In this document: positions 2,028 to 10,324 of the stretch, one piece after another | Layout: each line of letters begins with the position of its first letter | How positions within the stretch are numbered: the first letter of the stretch is position 1 | NCBI GenBank assembly: GCA_017546505.1 | Contig: JAFYWV010000089.1 | Location: forward strand, 1-56,958 | From: Bacteroidaceae bacterium | GTDB lineage: Bacteria > Bacteroidota > Bacteroidia > Bacteroidales > Bacteroidaceae | Length of the DNA stretch: 56,958 bases | Direction of reading: 5' to 3' | Notes under the pieces: model-generated | Database searches by the model: none | Told to the model about the DNA's origin: nothing | Seen by the model: only the letters and a program-made list of their open reading frames with translations | Translations under genes and position numbers: made by a program

Positions 2028-2031
2028 ATAC

Positions 2032-2076
2032 AAAAAAGCGAGGTGCTGAAAACAACTTTCAGCACCTCGCTTTTTT
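2032..2076. terminator. Bidirectional intrinsic terminator between tadA and the Cthe_2159-type gene
   Basis: A perfect 20-base inverted repeat (2032-2051 with 2057-2076) with a 5-base loop. The stem ends in A6 on the left and T6 on the right, so it works as a terminator on either strand. Confidence 0.9.
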
Positions 2077-2092
2077 GTATGTTAAGTTTTTT

Positions 2093-3751
2093 TTATTCGT
2101 AATCCTGTGTCAACAGCCAGCCACCGGTCTGTGTAGCATCGGTGTCGAGTGCCGTGTCGCTTGTGCTGTGTACATTGACTGTTCCACCATTTATTTCTAT
2201 TGACATCTGTACCGACATTGCGTGGTTATAGGCCTTTGCAATGAGTGTGCCACCGTTGACGATGATGCCGTCTGCTGTGATTGCGCGTGTCTTTTTGTCA
2301 TTAGCAATGTCGGTGTAATTCTCGGCTGTTGCAAGCAAGGTGACCTTGCCGCTGTTGATGACTACGTCATAGTCGCAGTTGATGGCTTTTGCACCCTTGC
2401 CGTTGCATTCTATGCCAACAGTGGCATCTGTTATGGTTAGTGTACCGTAGCTCTTTATGCCGCCGGCCGATGATTCATCGGCAGAGACTGTTCCGTTGGC
2501 GATGCCGGTGAGCTTGCCGCCACTGATGGTAGTTGTGCCATCGCTGTTGATGATTTTTGAACCGTTGCCGTTGACAGTGGCCTGTATGATGCCGCCATTT
2601 TGAGTGTAATTGCCGGTAGTCTGTATTGCCGAGCTCTTTTCACCGGTTGTGGTAATGTTTATGTAACCGCCATTGATGTAGGCATCGGGGATTACGGCTG
2701 GGTCGGTCTCTTCGTACACAACTTTGATGCCTTCGCCACCTGATGTGATGTCGAGCTTGCCGGCCTCTATGGTCAATGTACCCTCGGTGCACTCAATGCC
2801 ATTGCTTGTGGCATTGATTGTTATATTGGGTGAGCAGGCCTCGGCTCTACCGATTACGAATTTGTCCTTTGTGCGGAAACCATCCTTTGCTGCAGAGAGG
2901 ATGTTGATGTTGCCACCTCGCACTCTTATGTAGTCGTCGCTGCAAATTGCGTGGCCTCCAAGGCTGGTTACGTTGAGGGTGCCGGCACCGTTGATAATCA
3001 ACTGTCCCTCGCTGAAGATTGTTCCTTTCTGGTCCTCTTCTTCACCGTTGCTGCCAACAACCGGCGCATTGTATGTCGCACCGTCGCATAGGGTGTTGTT
3101 GGAGTTTGTCAAGAGTGTGAAATATACTGTTTTTCCACTCTGTATGTTTATTGCGGGGCCTGTGGGGTTTGTCAGGCTAAGCCCTAGCATCATAATCTGA
3201 AATTTCTTGTCGCTGTAAATCTTCAACGAGCCGTTGCTACAGGTTCCTTTTACTCTGTAGCCGATTTTGCTGAGTGTTGAGTTGATGACAATGTGTCCGC
3301 CATTGATGGTGGCTGTGATGCCACTGGGCAAGGCGGTTGTCTTTACGCCTGTCTCGCTGAATGTGATTGTTATGATGCGCGAGGTTGAGTAGTTCTCTAC
3401 AAAATCGCCATACTCGTCGTCAAGTTCATCGGTGGGGATAGCCTGGGTTATTTCGTTGAAATTCTCCTTGTCTGTGGCATCAAAAGCAACGGTCGGGTTA
3501 AGGTCGTATGTCAACTCTGTTCCGTTGTTCGAAACAGGAGCTATGTTTGTTATCCCGGTTGTTGAGAATTGGCTTGCTATGCCATTGCCCAATTCAATGC
3601 GGATGAGTTGCTGTTCCTCGTTGAAGGTTATGTCGCCGGTTGTCTTGGTGTCAATCTCTTGGTATGTGCCGTTACTGTTGTTTACGTACAATACCTGTGC
3701 CTGTGCAAAAGATGCTGCAAGCACCCCGAAAAGAAATAGTGCCTTTTTCAT
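2093..3751 (-). CDS. Secreted right-handed beta-helix protein, Cthe_2159-type carbohydrate-binding domain
   Basis: A 552-residue exported protein with a signal peptide ending at AQA (about residue 19). Residues 20-75 form a short beta module (QEIDTKTTGDITFN...). From about residue 120 it consists of repeated INGG and IxSxGxL turns, such as LIINGAGTLNV and VVINSGKVTL, as in the Cthe_2159 family of beta-helix proteins that bind cellulose or acidic pectin. It is the last gene of the five-gene unit, and its ATG overlaps the preceding gene by 4 bases (ATGA). It has no C-terminal sorting tail of its own. Polysaccharide binding is inferred from the family, and the ligand is unknown. A polyphosphate or host-glycan ligand cannot be excluded. 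Confidence 0.8.
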   Translation of the reverse strand: MKKALFLFGVLAASFAQAQVLYVNNSNGTYQEIDTKTTGDITFNEEQQLIRIELGNGIASQFSTTGITNIAPVSNNGTELTYDLNPTVAFDATDKENFNEITQAIPTDELDDEYGDFVENYSTSRIITITFSETGVKTTALPSGITATINGGHIVINSTLSKIGYRVKGTCSNGSLKIYSDKKFQIMMLGLSLTNPTGPAINIQSGKTVYFTLLTNSNNTLCDGATYNAPVVGSNGEEEDQKGTIFSEGQLIINGAGTLNVTSLGGHAICSDDYIRVRGGNINILSAAKDGFRTKDKFVIGRAEACSPNITINATSNGIECTEGTLTIEAGKLDITSGGEGIKVVYEETDPAVIPDAYINGGYINITTTGEKSSAIQTTGNYTQNGGIIQATVNGNGSKIINSDGTTTISGGKLTGIANGTVSADESSAGGIKSYGTLTITDATVGIECNGKGAKAINCDYDVVINSGKVTLLATAENYTDIANDKKTRAITADGIIVNGGTLIAKAYNHAMSVQMSIEINGGTVNVHSTSDTALDTDATQTGGWLLTQDYE

Positions 3752-4206
3752 CTTTTTATGATTTTTGTGGTTCTTTCATTAGCTTTTACAATGTATATTC
3801 CTTTGGGAAGGTTTGCGATGCTTATTGCACTGCCTTGTGCGTTGATGCGCTTGGTGAGCAGTGATGCGCCAGTAAGGCTGTATATGCTGACTGCTGAACC
3901 TGCATCTGCATTTATGGCAATCTCATCGGCCGACAGATATTCTACCAGATTGTCGTCTTGTTGCTGGATGTCGGCAATTGATGACAAGTCGCTGAAATAG
4001 ATGCGGTTGATGTTGCCCATAGTGGTGCTGTTCTTTGTTCCATCGTTCTGCTCTATGTTCACGGTGATGCCGTCAAATGTTATCTGTTTAAGATTGTCAA
4101 GTGTGACAATCTCATTGTCAACCCCGGTCTTTTCCACCACAAGATGCTGTGCTGCAGCTGTGGTTGCAAGGGTGATTAATGATACAATGAGTAATATCTT
4201 TTTCAT
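3748..4206 (-). CDS. Small secreted protein with type A T9SS-like C-terminal sorting domain
   Basis: A 152-residue protein with a signal peptide (cleavage after AAAQ, about residue 20), a short beta module around KQITFDG and INRIYF (residues 35-75), and a C-terminal domain (about 92-152). The C-terminal domain has the pattern SVSIYSLTGASL, ISIANLPKGIYIVK and a final TTKIIKR, matching the Por-secretion-tail type A signal of the type IX system. Almost nothing is left as cargo besides the N-terminal module. That module resembles the N-terminus of the next gene's product, suggesting a shared assembly or docking element. It lies 12 bases after the DUF2490 gene and overlaps the beta-helix gene by 4 bases. 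Function is unknown. Confidence 0.75.
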   Translation of the reverse strand: MKKILLIVSLITLATTAAAQHLVVEKTGVDNEIVTLDNLKQITFDGITVNIEQNDGTKNSTTMGNINRIYFSDLSSIADIQQQDDNLVEYLSADEIAINADAGSAVSIYSLTGASLLTKRINAQGSAISIANLPKGIYIVKANERTTKIIKR

Positions 4207-4218
4207 AATATGAGTTTA

Positions 4219-5085
4219 TTAAAGGTCAATAGAGTACTCTAATCCAATTGCGTGTCCACCGGGCTCATCATCGTCATTGACGCTTTGATAGAGGTAGAAT
4301 AAAGAAATTGAGTTCTTCTTGTTTATCTTGTAGCTTCCGCCTATGCGGTATCGTAATTTGTCATATCCTTTCCACTCGTCGAGACGGGTATATAGTTCCA
4401 CCGATGCAAATGGGTTGATTTTGCAGTTTGGAATGTCGTATTTGACGTTGAGACGTGAACGAAGGGTCAAGTTGTGTTTTGCTTTTTTTGTTTCGGCATT
4501 CTTCTCGACCTCAAGAACAGGTGGTAGGTCGTTGCCTTCGTCGTCTATCTGCTCATACCAGCGGTATTTTGTTTCGTCTGTTGTGGCAGAGCCGGTATGT
4601 GTGTATTGCAGTCGTTCGCGCAGGCCAATCTCAAAGCGTCCGATCTTGTATTCTCCGCTGATGGTTGCATATACTCGATTGCGTATTACCCAATAGTCGT
4701 GGTCGACGTTTTTATCATAAAGAAGTACGGTTTCTCCATTTTCGTCAAGAATCTCCTTTGTGTCTTTGATGCTTGTCTCCTCGGGCTTATGGGTGTACAT
4801 AAAACTATAACCGACATTTGCCTTCAGCCATTTGAGTATCTTGTATTCAACCTTTGCGCCGATGGTGGCACGCTCTATGTTCTTTACAAAATCGTATGTG
4901 CGCAACTCGGCATCTGCAACGACCTTGAACTCTTTGTTTATTTTTTTGGACGCTTCAAATGTTGCCCAAATTCCAAATTCGTCATTGTTGCCCTGTGCAT
5001 TGGCATTGCAGGATGGAGCGAGCAAAAACATTGCTAAGAGCAATGTGAGTATGCCTCTGAAATTATTCTTTAAGTTTGTATTCAT
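4219..5085 (-). CDS. DUF2490 family outer-membrane beta-barrel protein
   Basis: A 288-residue protein with a signal peptide (to about residue 31, ANAQ) followed by alternating amphipathic strands, for example FKVVADAELRTYDF, FEIGLRERLQYTH and the terminal AIGLEYSIDL. The strand pattern and aromatic-poor terminal Leu fit a small outer-membrane barrel of the DUF2490 family, whose function is not known. Its start lies 23 bases inside the DUF4956 gene, so the two are translationally coupled. It probably forms the outer-membrane part of the five-gene unit; this is inference from topology and position. Confidence 0.78.
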   Translation of the reverse strand: MNTNLKNNFRGILTLLLAMFLLAPSCNANAQGNNDEFGIWATFEASKKINKEFKVVADAELRTYDFVKNIERATIGAKVEYKILKWLKANVGYSFMYTHKPEETSIKDTKEILDENGETVLLYDKNVDHDYWVIRNRVYATISGEYKIGRFEIGLRERLQYTHTGSATTDETKYRWYEQIDDEGNDLPPVLEVEKNAETKKAKHNLTLRSRLNVKYDIPNCKINPFASVELYTRLDEWKGYDKLRYRIGGSYKINKKNSISLFYLYQSVNDDDEPGGHAIGLEYSIDL

Positions 5086-5935
5086 CTGTAGGGGTTTTAA
5101 GTATTGTGTCTACTGAATTGTTTGCCTCGTTGCTTTTGTAATACATCTTTACTATTGCGGCGTCCTTGAGGAAGTCGATTGCACCGACTTCGACCTTGAC
5201 GACTTTCAGCCCTGTGCGCTTTTCAAGGTCGGCAATCAGTTCCTCTCGCTTCTCGGGGGTGATGAGGCTGATGTTGTCATATTTTATGACTTTGTATGAG
5301 TAGTGGCTGATGAGCAGCCTGCTCTCGCAAATGATGATGGCTATGATGAACAGGATGTTTATGATGATTACCTCGCCAAGGCTAAGCTCACTGATTGTGA
5401 GTCCGTTGATGGCGCTCAGTGCAATGATGATGAACAGGTATGTCATCTCGCGGATAGCTATCTGCTCGGTGCGGTAACGTATGATGCTGAACATAGCAAA
5501 GAGACCAAGTGCAATGCCGGCCTTCAGCTTTACATCGCCAAGCACGTATATGAGCATAAAGGTGCTGATGGCAATGAGTATGTAGGTGAAGAAGAACTCT
5601 CCACGTTTGCATTTGGGGTAGTAGAGCCAACGGACAATTATCATAATGGCCACCAGGTTAATCAGGAATGCCAACAGTAGTTTGTAGACGTGGTCTGTGT
5701 CTATGAATTTGTCGGTCTGGCGTTTTTGCTTCACCGACACGGACATCTTCTCGTGTTGGTTGAGCTCGTCGTCGTAGTCGATGAAGACATTGACAGCTTC
5801 GGCCTTTTTGATTTCAGAAGCTACGGTACTTACTGTCTCTAACGCATTTGTTTCTGTTGCACTTGTGTTCTCGACTTCCTGTGCTTGCACGTACATTGTC
5901 GAGAAAATTAAGAGTAGGGTAGTTAAAAGTTTCAT
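5063..5935 (-). CDS. DUF4956 polytopic inner-membrane protein with added signal peptide and periplasmic N-terminus
   Basis: A 290-residue membrane protein. Residues 84-205 hold about five membrane segments and the DUF4956 signature around IIRYRTEQIAIREM (151-164). A soluble C-terminal region (about 210-290) resembles a small alpha/beta regulatory domain. DUF4956 genes often sit beside VTC-domain genes, as here (10 bases from the VTC gene). Unusually, the protein begins with a cleavable-looking signal peptide (MKLLTTLLLI...VQAQ) and about 60 polar residues before the first membrane helix, where typical family members start near the helix. Its function is unknown; a channel or accessory subunit for the VTC enzyme is a reasonable guess. 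Confidence 0.82.
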   Translation of the reverse strand: MKLLTTLLLIFSTMYVQAQEVENTSATETNALETVSTVASEIKKAEAVNVFIDYDDELNQHEKMSVSVKQKRQTDKFIDTDHVYKLLLAFLINLVAIMIIVRWLYYPKCKRGEFFFTYILIAISTFMLIYVLGDVKLKAGIALGLFAMFSIIRYRTEQIAIREMTYLFIIIALSAINGLTISELSLGEVIIINILFIIAIIICESRLLISHYSYKVIKYDNISLITPEKREELIADLEKRTGLKVVKVEVGAIDFLKDAAIVKMYYKSNEANNSVDTILKTPTDEYKLKE

Positions 5936-5945
5936 TATTATAGCT

Positions 5946-6710
5946 TTATCGTTTGTTTTCCATTTTCTTTATCATTGTCAGGCGTTCCTTGAAGTTGTTA
6001 CGCTTGAGTTTGCTGTTTGTAAGTGCACTGCCAATGCAGTATTTGCTGAACCCGGAGCGTTTTATGCGTGTGTCGCGCAAAAGGTCAAGTGCGGGCGACG
6101 GGACATTGCCATCGCGTTTCAGTTCAATGATGGCGATATGTTGTAGCCGGTCGTGGTCATCGCTCTTCAGGTGATGGAAACGGAGGTTGAAGTCAATTGT
6201 CAGTCTCTCGGTCTTTTCATAGTTTACCAATGTGATGCGGTTGAACCAGTTCTCTATGACGGGGGAAATCTCGTCAATAGTGTACCACGCGTGCTTTGCC
6301 ATAAAGGGTACAATGCTCTCGTGCTCCTGTTCTACAGTGTCGTGCCCGCTGATAGAGATACGTTTTTTCTTTGTGCGGCCGTGGTTGTTCTTGTTCTTAA
6401 TTTCAAAGAATGTGTCGTCGCTGTCAAGGTACGTGCGAACGCGTATCTTCTCCCTCACTTGACGTCCGGCGTGGTGTATGCCGTACATCTGGTAGTCGGA
6501 TGTGTCAAAATAGGTTGTGTGATAACTTGCGATGCGCTTGTCGTTGATTTCCTGGATGTAATACTTGCCGCGGACAGCGGTGAGGAACGAATGCAATTGC
6601 TCAATGGTGGCCACAAATTTTGTGTCCGTTCTGTTCATTAGCTTTATTCCCGACATCTCTTCCAAAGTGATTGGTGGGAGCCGGAGCGTTTTTTCGGCTA
6701 TTTTTTTCAT
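5946..6710 (-). CDS. VTC-domain protein, predicted polyphosphate polymerase
   Basis: A 254-residue soluble protein of the VTC family (CYTH/triphosphate-tunnel fold). In yeast the VTC domain makes polyphosphate from ATP. Tunnel-type residues are kept: K31 in TDTKF, YFDT (67-70), the basic run R86/K88/R90/R92, E103 and K105 in FEIKNK, K114-R117, R177 in DFNLRF, E196-K198 in IIELK, and K223 in FSKYCIG. It has no membrane segment and no SPX domain, so it is the bacterial stand-alone form. It is the first gene of the five-gene unit and probably acts with the DUF4956 membrane protein. Another nucleotide-derived polymer is possible as product. Confidence 0.82.
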   Translation of the reverse strand: MKKIAEKTLRLPPITLEEMSGIKLMNRTDTKFVATIEQLHSFLTAVRGKYYIQEINDKRIASYHTTYFDTSDYQMYGIHHAGRQVREKIRVRTYLDSDDTFFEIKNKNNHGRTKKKRISISGHDTVEQEHESIVPFMAKHAWYTIDEISPVIENWFNRITLVNYEKTERLTIDFNLRFHHLKSDDHDRLQHIAIIELKRDGNVPSPALDLLRDTRIKRSGFSKYCIGSALTNSKLKRNNFKERLTMIKKMENKR

Positions 6711-6740: not shown

Positions 6741-6748
6741 CAAAGATA
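6741..6748 (-). promoter_or_regulatory. -7 box of the VTC/DUF4956 operon
   Basis: CAAAGATA on the plus strand is TATCTTTG on the minus strand, a match to the Bacteroidetes -7 element, about 30 bases upstream of the VTC start. A -33 element at the right spacing is not clear. Confidence 0.5.
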
Positions 6749-7588: not shown

Positions 7589-10324
7589 ATGAGACGTAAG
7601 GCATTGGGGCTTTTGTTGGCAATTATGTTGCAGGTGGTCGCTTCTATTGGGGTGTCCGCCGGTGACTTGTCGTTTTTGTCAGATGCTGTTACATTCTCTC
7701 TTTCGGATACTCTGGCGGTTGACACTTCTGTCGTGTCGGTTGATACTTTAGAGGTTAAGGCACCAAAAAAGGATGCCATTGATGCACCGGTCTTTTACGA
7801 GAGTGCCGACTCGATGGTGTGGTCTACGGATGGTAATGCCTTTTTGTATGGTAGCGGAAAAGTTGTCTACGACAAGATAGAGTTGACGGCGGATGTCATT
7901 TCAATGAATATGGACAGCAGTGTGGTTCACGCATTCGGACGTGCCGATTCGGCCGGCGTGGTGAGCGGGCTTCCGGTGTTTGTCGATGGAGGCACTCCAT
8001 ACGAGTCGGACAAGATGAGCTACAACTTCAAGAGCCGAAAGGGATTTATCAGCAATGTCTACACTCAACAGGGTGATGGTTTCCTGATGGGTGGAAAGGC
8101 TAAAAAGGATTCTACTGATGTCTTTTATTCACAAGATGGTATGTACACCACCTGTGATGCCGAGCATCCGCATTTTTATATCAAACTGACTCGTGCCAAG
8201 GTGCGCCCCAAGAAGGATGTGGTGTCGGGTCCTTTATATCTGGTGATAGAGGATGTGCCTTTGCCTTTGGCTCTGCCATTCGGTTATTTCCCCTTTACAA
8301 GCAAATACTCCTCGGGTATTATTATGCCGACTTATGGCGATGAACTGGAACGCGGCTTTTATCTGCGTGACGGTGGATACTATTTTGCCATCAGTGACAA
8401 GTTTGACCTTAAACTCACAGGTGAGATTTATACAAAGGGCTCTTGGGGTGTAGGGGCTGCATCGACGTATGCCAAGCGTTACAGGTTCTCGGGTAGTGTA
8501 AACTTCAGCTATCTTGTGACCAAGAGTGGTGAAAGGGGATTGCCCGACTATTCGGTCGGAAAGAACTTCAGGATTGCCTGGAATCATAGGCAGGATGCCA
8601 AGGCCCGTCCCAACAGCAGTTTCTCGGCAAGTGTAAACTTCTCTACCGCCAACTATGAGCGTGCAAACCTGACGAGTCTCTATAATCCGGTGCTCAGTTC
8701 GCAGAGTATGAGAACTTCGAGTGTAAGCTATTCGTACACATTCCCGTCGATTGGCCTTACATTGTCGTCTACGATGAACCTTTCACAGAATGTAAGGGAT
8801 TCCATCATTTCGTTGAATTTGCCAAGCCTTAATGTGTCGCTGTCTAAGAAGTATCCCTTTAAACGCAAAAAACGCAAGGGCGACGAACGTTGGTATGAAA
8901 AGATTTCTTTGTCGTACAGCGGACAATTCAGTAATAGCATATCTACAAAGGAGTATAAACTCCTGAAGTCTGATTTGTTGAAGGATTGGAATAATGGTGT
9001 AAAGCATAATATTCCGATAAGCGCTACATTCCAGTTGTTTGACCATATAAACATAACGCCAAGTTTCAATTACACCGAGCGCTGGTACTTTAAAAAGGTG
9101 AACCAGTCGTGGGATGACGTCAGGAACAGCGTGGTGCGTGATACGGTGGGTGGTTTCCATAGGGTGTATAATTATAATTTGTCAATTTCTGCCAATACTA
9201 CATTGTATGGTTTCTATAAGCCCGCCGCGTTTATGAAGAAGAGCCGCATACACACTGTGCGACACGTGTTCAAGCCCTCTGTGTCGTTCAGCTATGCTCC
9301 TGATTTTGGAAGCGACAGGTATGGTTATTACGATACGTACGTATACACTGACGAGAAAGGTGAGGTGCGCACGGTTGAATATTCTCCCTATCAGGGTGCT
9401 ATGTATGGATTGCCGTCAAAGGGCAAGACCGGCAGCATTTCAATGAGTGTCAGCAATAATCTTGAGATGAAATGGCGCACGAAGAATGATTCTTTGAAAA
9501 AAATCAGTCTTATTGATGAGATTGGAGCGTCGCTCTCGTATAATCTTGCTGCAAAGACAAAGCCTTGGAGTAACCTGTCGACACGATTGAGGTTGAAATT
9601 GACAAAGAACTATACCTTTAACTTCAATGCGACGTGGGCTACCTATGCCTATACATTCAATGATAATGGTCAGGTGGTCGTAGGCGACAGGACCGAGTGG
9701 TCTTATGGACGTTTCGGACGTTTCCAGGGTATGAGTCAGAATTTGTCGTACACCTTCAACAACAGTACTTTTACAAAGATTAAGGAGTGGTTTGAGAAAA
9801 GACGCAATGGAAGTGATGGGGGCGAAGGTGATGCTGGTGCTAAAGTGGGTGATGCCCCAAATGGTATTGAGAAAAAGCCCGGTGGCAGTATCCGCAATAA
9901 GGAGAAGGCGAAGAGTGCCGATGTCGATGATGACGGATATATGCCTTTCAAGTTCCCATGGAGTTTGTCGCTATCCTACGGTATAACGATGGCCGAGGAC
10001 AGGAGTGCCGAGATAAATTTGAGAAATATGCGCTACCCATATAAGTTTACACAGAACTTGAATATATCGGGCAATATCGGCATCTCGGACAATTGGCGCA
10101 TAAACTTTACATCGGGATATAACTTCGAGTACAAGAAGTTGACAACAACAACAATGAATATTTCGCGCGATTTGCACTGTTTTGAGATGTCGTGCGGTAT
10201 TGTGCTGGCGCCTTACACTTCGTTCAATTTCAGCTTCCGTGCTACTTCGCAGATGCTTGCAGATGCGCTGAAGATTGACAAGCGCAGTAGTCGTAGCTCA
10301 AATATCCAATGGTATAACGATTAA
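7589..10324 (+). CDS. lptD: LPS-assembly outer-membrane protein LptD, Bacteroidetes type
   Basis: Inserts lipopolysaccharide into the outer leaflet of the outer membrane together with LptE. The 911-residue protein has a signal peptide (to about residue 25), a periplasmic OstA/LptA-like beta-jellyroll (about 60-190, with GSGKVVYDKIELTADVISMN), and a large beta-barrel from about 210 to the end built of alternating strands. The sequence GPLYLVIEDVPLPLALPFGYFPF matches the jellyroll-barrel joint of LptD. A linker rich in G, D and K (about 730-785) interrupts the barrel, probably as a loop. A -7 box TAATTTTG lies at 7557-7564. The LptE partner is encoded at 30341-30868, not adjacent. Confidence 0.85.
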   Translation: MRRKALGLLLAIMLQVVASIGVSAGDLSFLSDAVTFSLSDTLAVDTSVVSVDTLEVKAPKKDAIDAPVFYESADSMVWSTDGNAFLYGSGKVVYDKIELTADVISMNMDSSVVHAFGRADSAGVVSGLPVFVDGGTPYESDKMSYNFKSRKGFISNVYTQQGDGFLMGGKAKKDSTDVFYSQDGMYTTCDAEHPHFYIKLTRAKVRPKKDVVSGPLYLVIEDVPLPLALPFGYFPFTSKYSSGIIMPTYGDELERGFYLRDGGYYFAISDKFDLKLTGEIYTKGSWGVGAASTYAKRYRFSGSVNFSYLVTKSGERGLPDYSVGKNFRIAWNHRQDAKARPNSSFSASVNFSTANYERANLTSLYNPVLSSQSMRTSSVSYSYTFPSIGLTLSSTMNLSQNVRDSIISLNLPSLNVSLSKKYPFKRKKRKGDERWYEKISLSYSGQFSNSISTKEYKLLKSDLLKDWNNGVKHNIPISATFQLFDHINITPSFNYTERWYFKKVNQSWDDVRNSVVRDTVGGFHRVYNYNLSISANTTLYGFYKPAAFMKKSRIHTVRHVFKPSVSFSYAPDFGSDRYGYYDTYVYTDEKGEVRTVEYSPYQGAMYGLPSKGKTGSISMSVSNNLEMKWRTKNDSLKKISLIDEIGASLSYNLAAKTKPWSNLSTRLRLKLTKNYTFNFNATWATYAYTFNDNGQVVVGDRTEWSYGRFGRFQGMSQNLSYTFNNSTFTKIKEWFEKRRNGSDGGEGDAGAKVGDAPNGIEKKPGGSIRNKEKAKSADVDDDGYMPFKFPWSLSLSYGITMAEDRSAEINLRNMRYPYKFTQNLNISGNIGISDNWRINFTSGYNFEYKKLTTTTMNISRDLHCFEMSCGIVLAPYTSFNFSFRATSQMLADALKIDKRSSRSSNIQWYND

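Follow-up and report, generated by a model that had tools for sequence, protein, structure and literature searches.

How might a bacterial polyphosphate polymerase of the VTC type dispose of its product? The question is raised by a cluster of five open reading frames (ORFs) in a ruminant-gut Bacteroidaceae bacterium (assembly GCA_017546505.1, contig JAFYWV010000089.1, positions 1 to 56,958; this whole stretch of 56,958 nucleotides is termed the window). The cluster, which lies entirely on the minus strand and spans 6710 to 2093, encodes a VTC protein, a DUF4956 inner-membrane protein, a DUF2490 outer-membrane barrel, a small secreted protein with a sorting tail of the type IX secretion system (T9SS) and a Cthe_2159-type beta-helix. 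We tentatively read this operon as a coupled line of polyphosphate synthesis and export across the two-membrane envelope, fitted with a surface module, a reading that we consider plausible, though somewhat short of an even chance. In such a pathway, the cytosolic VTC protein would polymerise phosphate from a nucleotide triphosphate, DUF4956 would take the growing chain across the inner membrane, as the Vtc1/3/4 membrane channel does in yeast, and DUF2490 would form the outer part of the route. The beta-helix has no tail of its own but carries an N-terminal domain (N-domain) similar to that of the small protein; the two N-domains would pair, and the small protein would thereby lend the beta-helix a surface sorting signal. 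Secreted CotH proteins of the kinase fold, whose genes lie on other contigs, would act on the same surface.

The VTC protein and its recurrent gene neighbourhood

The VTC protein has no signal peptide, and PF09359 is its sole domain match; it possesses neither an SPX domain nor membrane helices of its own, the membrane component DUF4956 being a separate gene. Its structure model has a predicted local distance difference test score (pLDDT) of 96.3. Neither the protein sequence nor a profile of close relatives retrieved yeast Vtc4 from the PDB; only a wider profile, built from 42 diverse relatives, matched the Vtc4 chains, with an expectation value (E) of 1.2e-20. Vtc4 is a distant relative of the protein, and this polymerase is the nearest among solved structures. 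The Vtc4 residues R264, R266 and E426 correspond to R90, R92 and E196 of the window protein, and are kept in 42, 41 and 41 of the 42 aligned relatives. Likewise kept are the positions equivalent to Vtc4 K200, K281, K294, R361 and K458, which presumably have a functional role in the tunnel. R264, R266 and E426 are the residues that were replaced in catalytically impaired Vtc4 (PMC9911596). The profile match and the alignment bear out the suggestion of an initial annotation, made from the DNA alone, that the tunnel residues are retained. Given this homology and the kept residues, the protein is predicted to be a cytosolic polyphosphate polymerase of the triphosphate-tunnel type. No match to PPK1 or PPK2 was detected in the window's own genome, which is 86% complete, and none to PPK1 in any of 21 genomes of the genus, this one included; because neither kinase was matched in its own genome, no candidate polyphosphate-making enzyme other than VTC was found there.

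The initial annotation had staked its proposal on the recurrence of the five-gene order in related genomes, and the order does recur. Our family sample comprised 151 genomes from the GTDB family of the window, of which 90 carry VTC (89 besides the window's), and 80 of these 89 loci were retrieved, several of them ending at contig edges. The order VTC-DUF4956-DUF2490-tail-beta-helix was seen in 53 of the 80, allowing an extra copy at either end. The others lack the tail protein (9), end after three genes (6), end after the tail gene (4), have the last two genes swapped (3) or are otherwise varied (5), with contig ends accounting for some of these variants. A second collection of 80 named loci, partially overlapping the first, showed the five-gene order in 43, and its nearest loci come from ruminant-gut Bacteroidaceae and Bacteroidales metagenome-assembled genomes. 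The core pair is still more constant: DUF4956 is the gene immediately after VTC in each of the 81 family rows (the window included) and in 50 of the 56 loci that were retrieved for 63 VTC matches from other families of the phylum. In the remaining 6, DUF4956 either was not seen (3) or lies a few kilobases upstream (3).

The beta-helix and CotH proteins

The beta-helix protein consists of a signal peptide, an N-domain, an acidic linker and the beta-helix proper, with no T9SS tail and no lipobox. The helix matches the Cthe_2159 family (PF14262) and the solved structure 4peu (E 2.5e-08). Relatives of this protein are net acidic in 98% of 137 cases, which does not support the binding of a polyanion by charge. 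Sugars are therefore the likelier ligands of the beta-helix, or else polyanions held through metal. The envelope-spanning polyanion pathway envisaged in the initial annotation thus keeps the VTC homology, the DUF4956 partner, the DUF2490 barrel and its recurrence, and loses the notion that the surface protein holds the polyanion by charge. Beta-helices with a dockerin-like N-terminus, containing GDVNGDGE repeats, were also observed (L186, L192, L194, L196, L198, L200, L206, L211, L214 and L220). In most cases the locus also encodes a second beta-helix, which is a lipoprotein.

The locus had further been described as lacking CotH. This holds for the operon and for the window's contig, on which PF08757 has no match, but not for the genome, where four matches lie on other contigs. 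Two of them, 1144 and 1568 residues long, are full-length proteins with signal-like N-termini and T9SS tails, so that secreted, T9SS-tailed CotH is encoded in trans and its absence from the organism can be rejected. The 1144-residue protein carries a ricin-type lectin domain, and the 1568-residue protein has F5/8 type C and dockerin matches, both below cut-off. A 625-residue CotH-domain protein (L328:6108-7985, contig C66) is encoded among phage tail, tail-fibre and endolysin genes and hence belongs to a prophage-like region. Another CotH gene (L329:4413-5847, contig C93) looks split into two overlapping ORFs, the second with a tail-like C-terminus.

Across genomes, the link between VTC and CotH is broad, and its signal lies between lineages rather than within genera. 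The family sample includes 83 genomes with both, 7 with VTC only, 22 with CotH only and 39 with neither (Fisher p 1.9e-13). In a phylum sample of 395 genomes, CotH is found in 55 of 57 genomes with VTC (the exceptions being G032 and G453) versus 80 of 338 without; counted by genus, the figures are 38 of 39 versus 55 of 132. CotH lies inside the retrieved flanks of VTC in 18 of the 56 phylum loci, and within the operon in just one of the 80 family loci (L062). A hydrophobic N-terminus was recorded in 20 of 21 VTC-flanking CotH proteins (19 loci) versus 17 of 247 VTC proteins; the lone CotH without one, in L300, possibly has a wrong start. The presence of CotH and its T9SS tails are direct observations, and a joint function with the operon may be supposed from them.

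These proteins also bear on a different account of the locus, one of surface glycan modification or attachment to fibres. Here VTC, DUF4956 and CotH would add phosphate to a glycan of the envelope or to a coat protein, the beta-helix would be an adhesin for cellulose or pectin, and the exported product would be something other than free polyphosphate. Binding to cellulose and polygalacturonic acid is reported for Cthe_2159 proteins (PMC6712302), which, along with the acidic character of the beta-helix and the lectin-type and sub-threshold dockerin and F5/8 type C matches of the genome's own CotH proteins, fits this account, as does the proximity of CotH, polyphosphate polymerase and DUF4956 genes to Pel exopolysaccharide genes in Gram-positives (PMC7112168). 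Yet the five operon ORFs include no glycosyltransferase or polysaccharide gene, and the polymerase residues of VTC are kept; we regard this account as possible but doubtful.

The membrane partners

In the export pathway that we favour, the membrane steps fall to DUF4956 and DUF2490. The DUF4956 model (pLDDT 78.8) shows five long helices (80-109, 113-132, 137-155, 161-180 and 186-204) followed by a small alpha/beta domain; R111, R155 and R162 are invariant, and the window protein bears a signal-like N-terminal extension. Yeast couples the synthesis of polyphosphate to its passage through a membrane channel (PMC9911596). The inner-membrane assignment made at the outset is upheld, and given its constant partnership with VTC, DUF4956 is proposed as the translocation partner of VTC and would be the natural counterpart of the yeast channel. 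The DUF2490 assignment is likewise upheld by a strong PF10677 match, beside a weak OMP_b-brl match under cut-off, and we propose that this barrel may provide the outer part of the export route.

VTC could instead be a conventional intracellular polyphosphate or triphosphate enzyme, with DUF4956 a mere anchor and the other three genes a separate surface module that happens to be co-transcribed. Neither the direction of polymerisation nor export can be read from sequence, the tunnel enzymes also include triphosphatases, and three-gene and two-gene versions of the locus occur in the family. Nevertheless, DUF2490 accompanies VTC-DUF4956 in 80 of the 81 family rows, even where the surface genes are gone, and the closest solved structure to VTC is the Vtc4 polymerase, which together make this alternative unlikely.

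The small T9SS-tail protein as a candidate adaptor

The small protein comprises a signal peptide, an N-domain of about 55 residues and a T9SS type A sorting tail. PF18962 and TIGR04183 both recognise this tail, in agreement with the initial annotation, and the TIGR04183 match, over cut-off, is the best tail match in the genome. We judged the presence of the T9SS from SprA and sorting tails: the genome encodes the SprA translocon (SprA_N E 1.7e-199, in a 2466-residue frame) and yields 13 tail matches, 11 of them over cut-off. The small protein thus has the signal peptide, the C-terminal sorting domain and the genomic T9SS expected of T9SS cargo. SprA does not separate loci with the tail gene from those without it (59 of 62 vs 16 of 19).

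Profile-profile comparison, which was needed as the strict profile search was weak, related the N-domains of the small protein and the beta-helix (probability 96.1, E 3.4e-9), with four of the controls falling below a probability of 6. Furthermore, the beta-helix is mostly a lipoprotein where the tail gene is absent, and mostly bears an ordinary signal peptide where that gene is present. Among 141 beta-helices, 90 are non-lipid with the tail gene, 15 non-lipid without, 6 lipid with and 30 lipid without. On a VTC tree of 125 loci, from which 52 rows without a beta-helix near VTC (28 short phylum loci and 24 family loci) and near-identical VTC rows had been dropped, the tail gene distinguishes the members of 9 independent, supported pairs. 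Averaged over 200 random pairings, anchor type was concordant in 7.5 of these pairs and discordant in 0.0 (median p 0.008, range 0.008-0.070). Starting from the anchor side, 12 pairs gave 7.7 the same, 0.0 opposite and 4.3 with no difference.

The lipobox rule behind these anchor calls is crude: the beta-helices of L095, L096 and L102 look non-lipidated and were scored lipid, those of L093 and L223 look lipidated and were scored non-lipid, and L211 and L220, in which a dockerin-type copy stands beside a lipoprotein copy, were scored non-lipid. The tree test rests on the uncorrected labels (88/7/5/25 for non-lipid with, non-lipid without, lipid with and lipid without the tail gene); corrected by hand, the table becomes 91/3/2/29. 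As the N-domains are related and the tail gene tracks the loss of the beta-helix lipid anchor on the tree, the small protein is best read as a targeting adaptor for the tail-less beta-helix. The homology and the tree-corrected covariation are observed, and the binding of one N-domain to the other would be the means by which the adaptor acts. In one relative, L074, beta-helix and tail are joined, which speaks for the adaptor: a 331-residue beta-helix (679-1674), encoded some 4 kb away from the VTC operon and on the other strand, bears a weak T9SS-type tail (E 2.2e-4) of its own.

Several observations weigh against the export pathway and its adaptor. For the bacterial members considered here, we infer the polyphosphate product, its export and the link to a kinase. 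The DUF4956 profile gave chance-level matches only against the PDB, with no recognisable solved relative. DUF2490 is absent from most loci outside the class-level relatives, which would be expected only if those loci use another outer route. The VTC-CotH link is not significant when stratified by genus (odds ratio 1.87, chi2 0.40; this excludes 12 genomes with no genus assignment, none of which has VTC or CotH), and CotH is missing in 7 of the 90 family VTC genomes, from four genera. The tail-bearing genomes G010, G131 and G134 have no SprA match, although G010 is listed as 100% complete. As for the adaptor, the reversed N-domain control reached a probability of 62, the identity of the N-domains is a low 18%, and the strict profile matches only 7 of 157 beta-helices; a lipidated beta-helix coexists with the tail gene in L067, L071 and L225, and a beta-helix of the N-domain type occurs without it in L188, L189 and L209. 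The low identity, the sparse strict matches and these exceptional loci would suit two independently secreted proteins, the beta-helix leaving by another route or staying periplasmic and the covariation reflecting shared locus ancestry, but this is improbable given that the tail and beta-helix genes overlap by 4 bases or sit close in most loci, that tail gene and anchor type switch together on separate tree branches, and that only L074 among 159 scanned beta-helices bears its own tail.

If the export pathway with its adaptor does operate, a bolder extension can be framed, which we rate as unlikely at present, if a shade better than the purely intracellular enzyme. Outside the cell, where little ATP is available, polyphosphate exported from VTC through DUF4956 and DUF2490 might be the phosphate donor for CotH. 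The operon and the secreted CotH proteins, the latter as T9SS cargo or lipoproteins, would then make up a system for phosphorylation outside the cell, in which a small dedicated adaptor carries the tail-less beta-helix through the T9SS. More generally, the reading of the operon offers testable answers to the question of where the product of a bacterial VTC enzyme goes, to that of the roles of DUF4956 and DUF2490, and to that of a possible phosphate source for secreted CotH kinase-fold proteins. The adaptor reading in turn predicts a kind of T9SS adaptor that is recognisable from the genome.

Locus layout and transcription signals

Pfam and NCBIfam matches confirmed the five family assignments of the initial annotation (Table 1), and the ORF listing reproduced exactly its spacings of 10, -23, 12 and -4 bases from VTC to the beta-helix. 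The five genes look like a single transcript. The box TATCTTTG upstream of VTC was named by the pattern TAnnTTTG, which we take to be the consensus of the Bacteroidetes-type promoter -7 box. As a promoter of the operon it is suggestive only, because the pattern is common: the word TANNTTTG has 70 matches in the window (1-56958) versus 47 expected, exceeding all 100 shuffles. The hairpin, placed past the last operon stop and ahead of a convergent deaminase gene, is a predicted terminator shared by the two. An Rfam scan of the window matched tRNA alone. Beyond the HD-domain gene adjoining the operon lies a gene for an LptD-type outer-membrane protein (7589-10324; PF19838, E 3e-167).

Table 1. 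Features of the five-gene locus in window coordinates
Feature	Coordinates	Strand	Length (residues)	Basis
VTC protein	5946..6710	minus	254	PF09359 E 7.2e-30
DUF4956 inner-membrane protein	5063..5935	minus	290	PF16316 E 4.8e-54
DUF2490 outer-membrane barrel	4219..5085	minus	288	PF10677 E 2.4e-31
Small secreted T9SS-tail protein	3748..4206	minus	152	PF18962 E 4.6e-07; TIGR04183 E 5.9e-09
Cthe_2159-type beta-helix	2093..3751	minus	552	PF14262 E 8.9e-49
Promoter-like -7 box TATCTTTG	6741..6748	minus		pattern match; VTC start codon 30 bases downstream
20-pair hairpin, T runs on both flanks	2031..2077	unassigned		terminator scan

Comparison with known systems

A literature search, with most subscription papers and preprints outside its reach, returned no description of the five-gene unit, of a T9SS adaptor of this kind, or of a T9SS-borne, trans-encoded CotH with VTC. 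DUF4956 lies next to VTC in the window as in the known CotH-VTC-DUF4956 cluster, and the unit can be seen as a variation on that reported gene partnership. With the yeast complex of Vtc1, Vtc3 and Vtc4 it shares a tunnel-type polymerase domain with kept catalytic residues and a membrane partner proposed to receive the chain; it differs in that VTC lacks both an SPX domain and a fused membrane domain, that DUF4956, the membrane partner, is a protein in its own right and unrelated, and that an outer-membrane barrel and surface module are added. The pel-side genes of Gram-positives (PMC7112168) similarly place a VTC-type polymerase beside DUF4956, with CotH in the same genome. In contrast to those loci, the window operon lacks CotH, and its five genes include neither pel nor DUF4832, having DUF2490, the T9SS-tail protein and the beta-helix instead. 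VTC with CotH is also reported in Clostridium perfringens, where VTC-domain proteins occur with a CotH protein in NELoc-2 (PMC2879425, PMC11677781); the host there is monoderm, and the locus has a tubulin/FtsZ-like annotation and chitin synthase-type genes, with no T9SS or barrel. In Bacteroides thetaiotaomicron, BT3498-BT3499 are the same two neighbouring families, DUF4956 and DUF2490, listed side by side without a function in an expression table that does not name VTC or the surface genes (PMC10434189). Finally, Cthe_2159 of Clostridium thermocellum (PDB 4peu) belongs to the same beta-helix family; the window protein differs from it in having an additional N-domain and acidic linker, and in being partnered by a T9SS-tailed protein.

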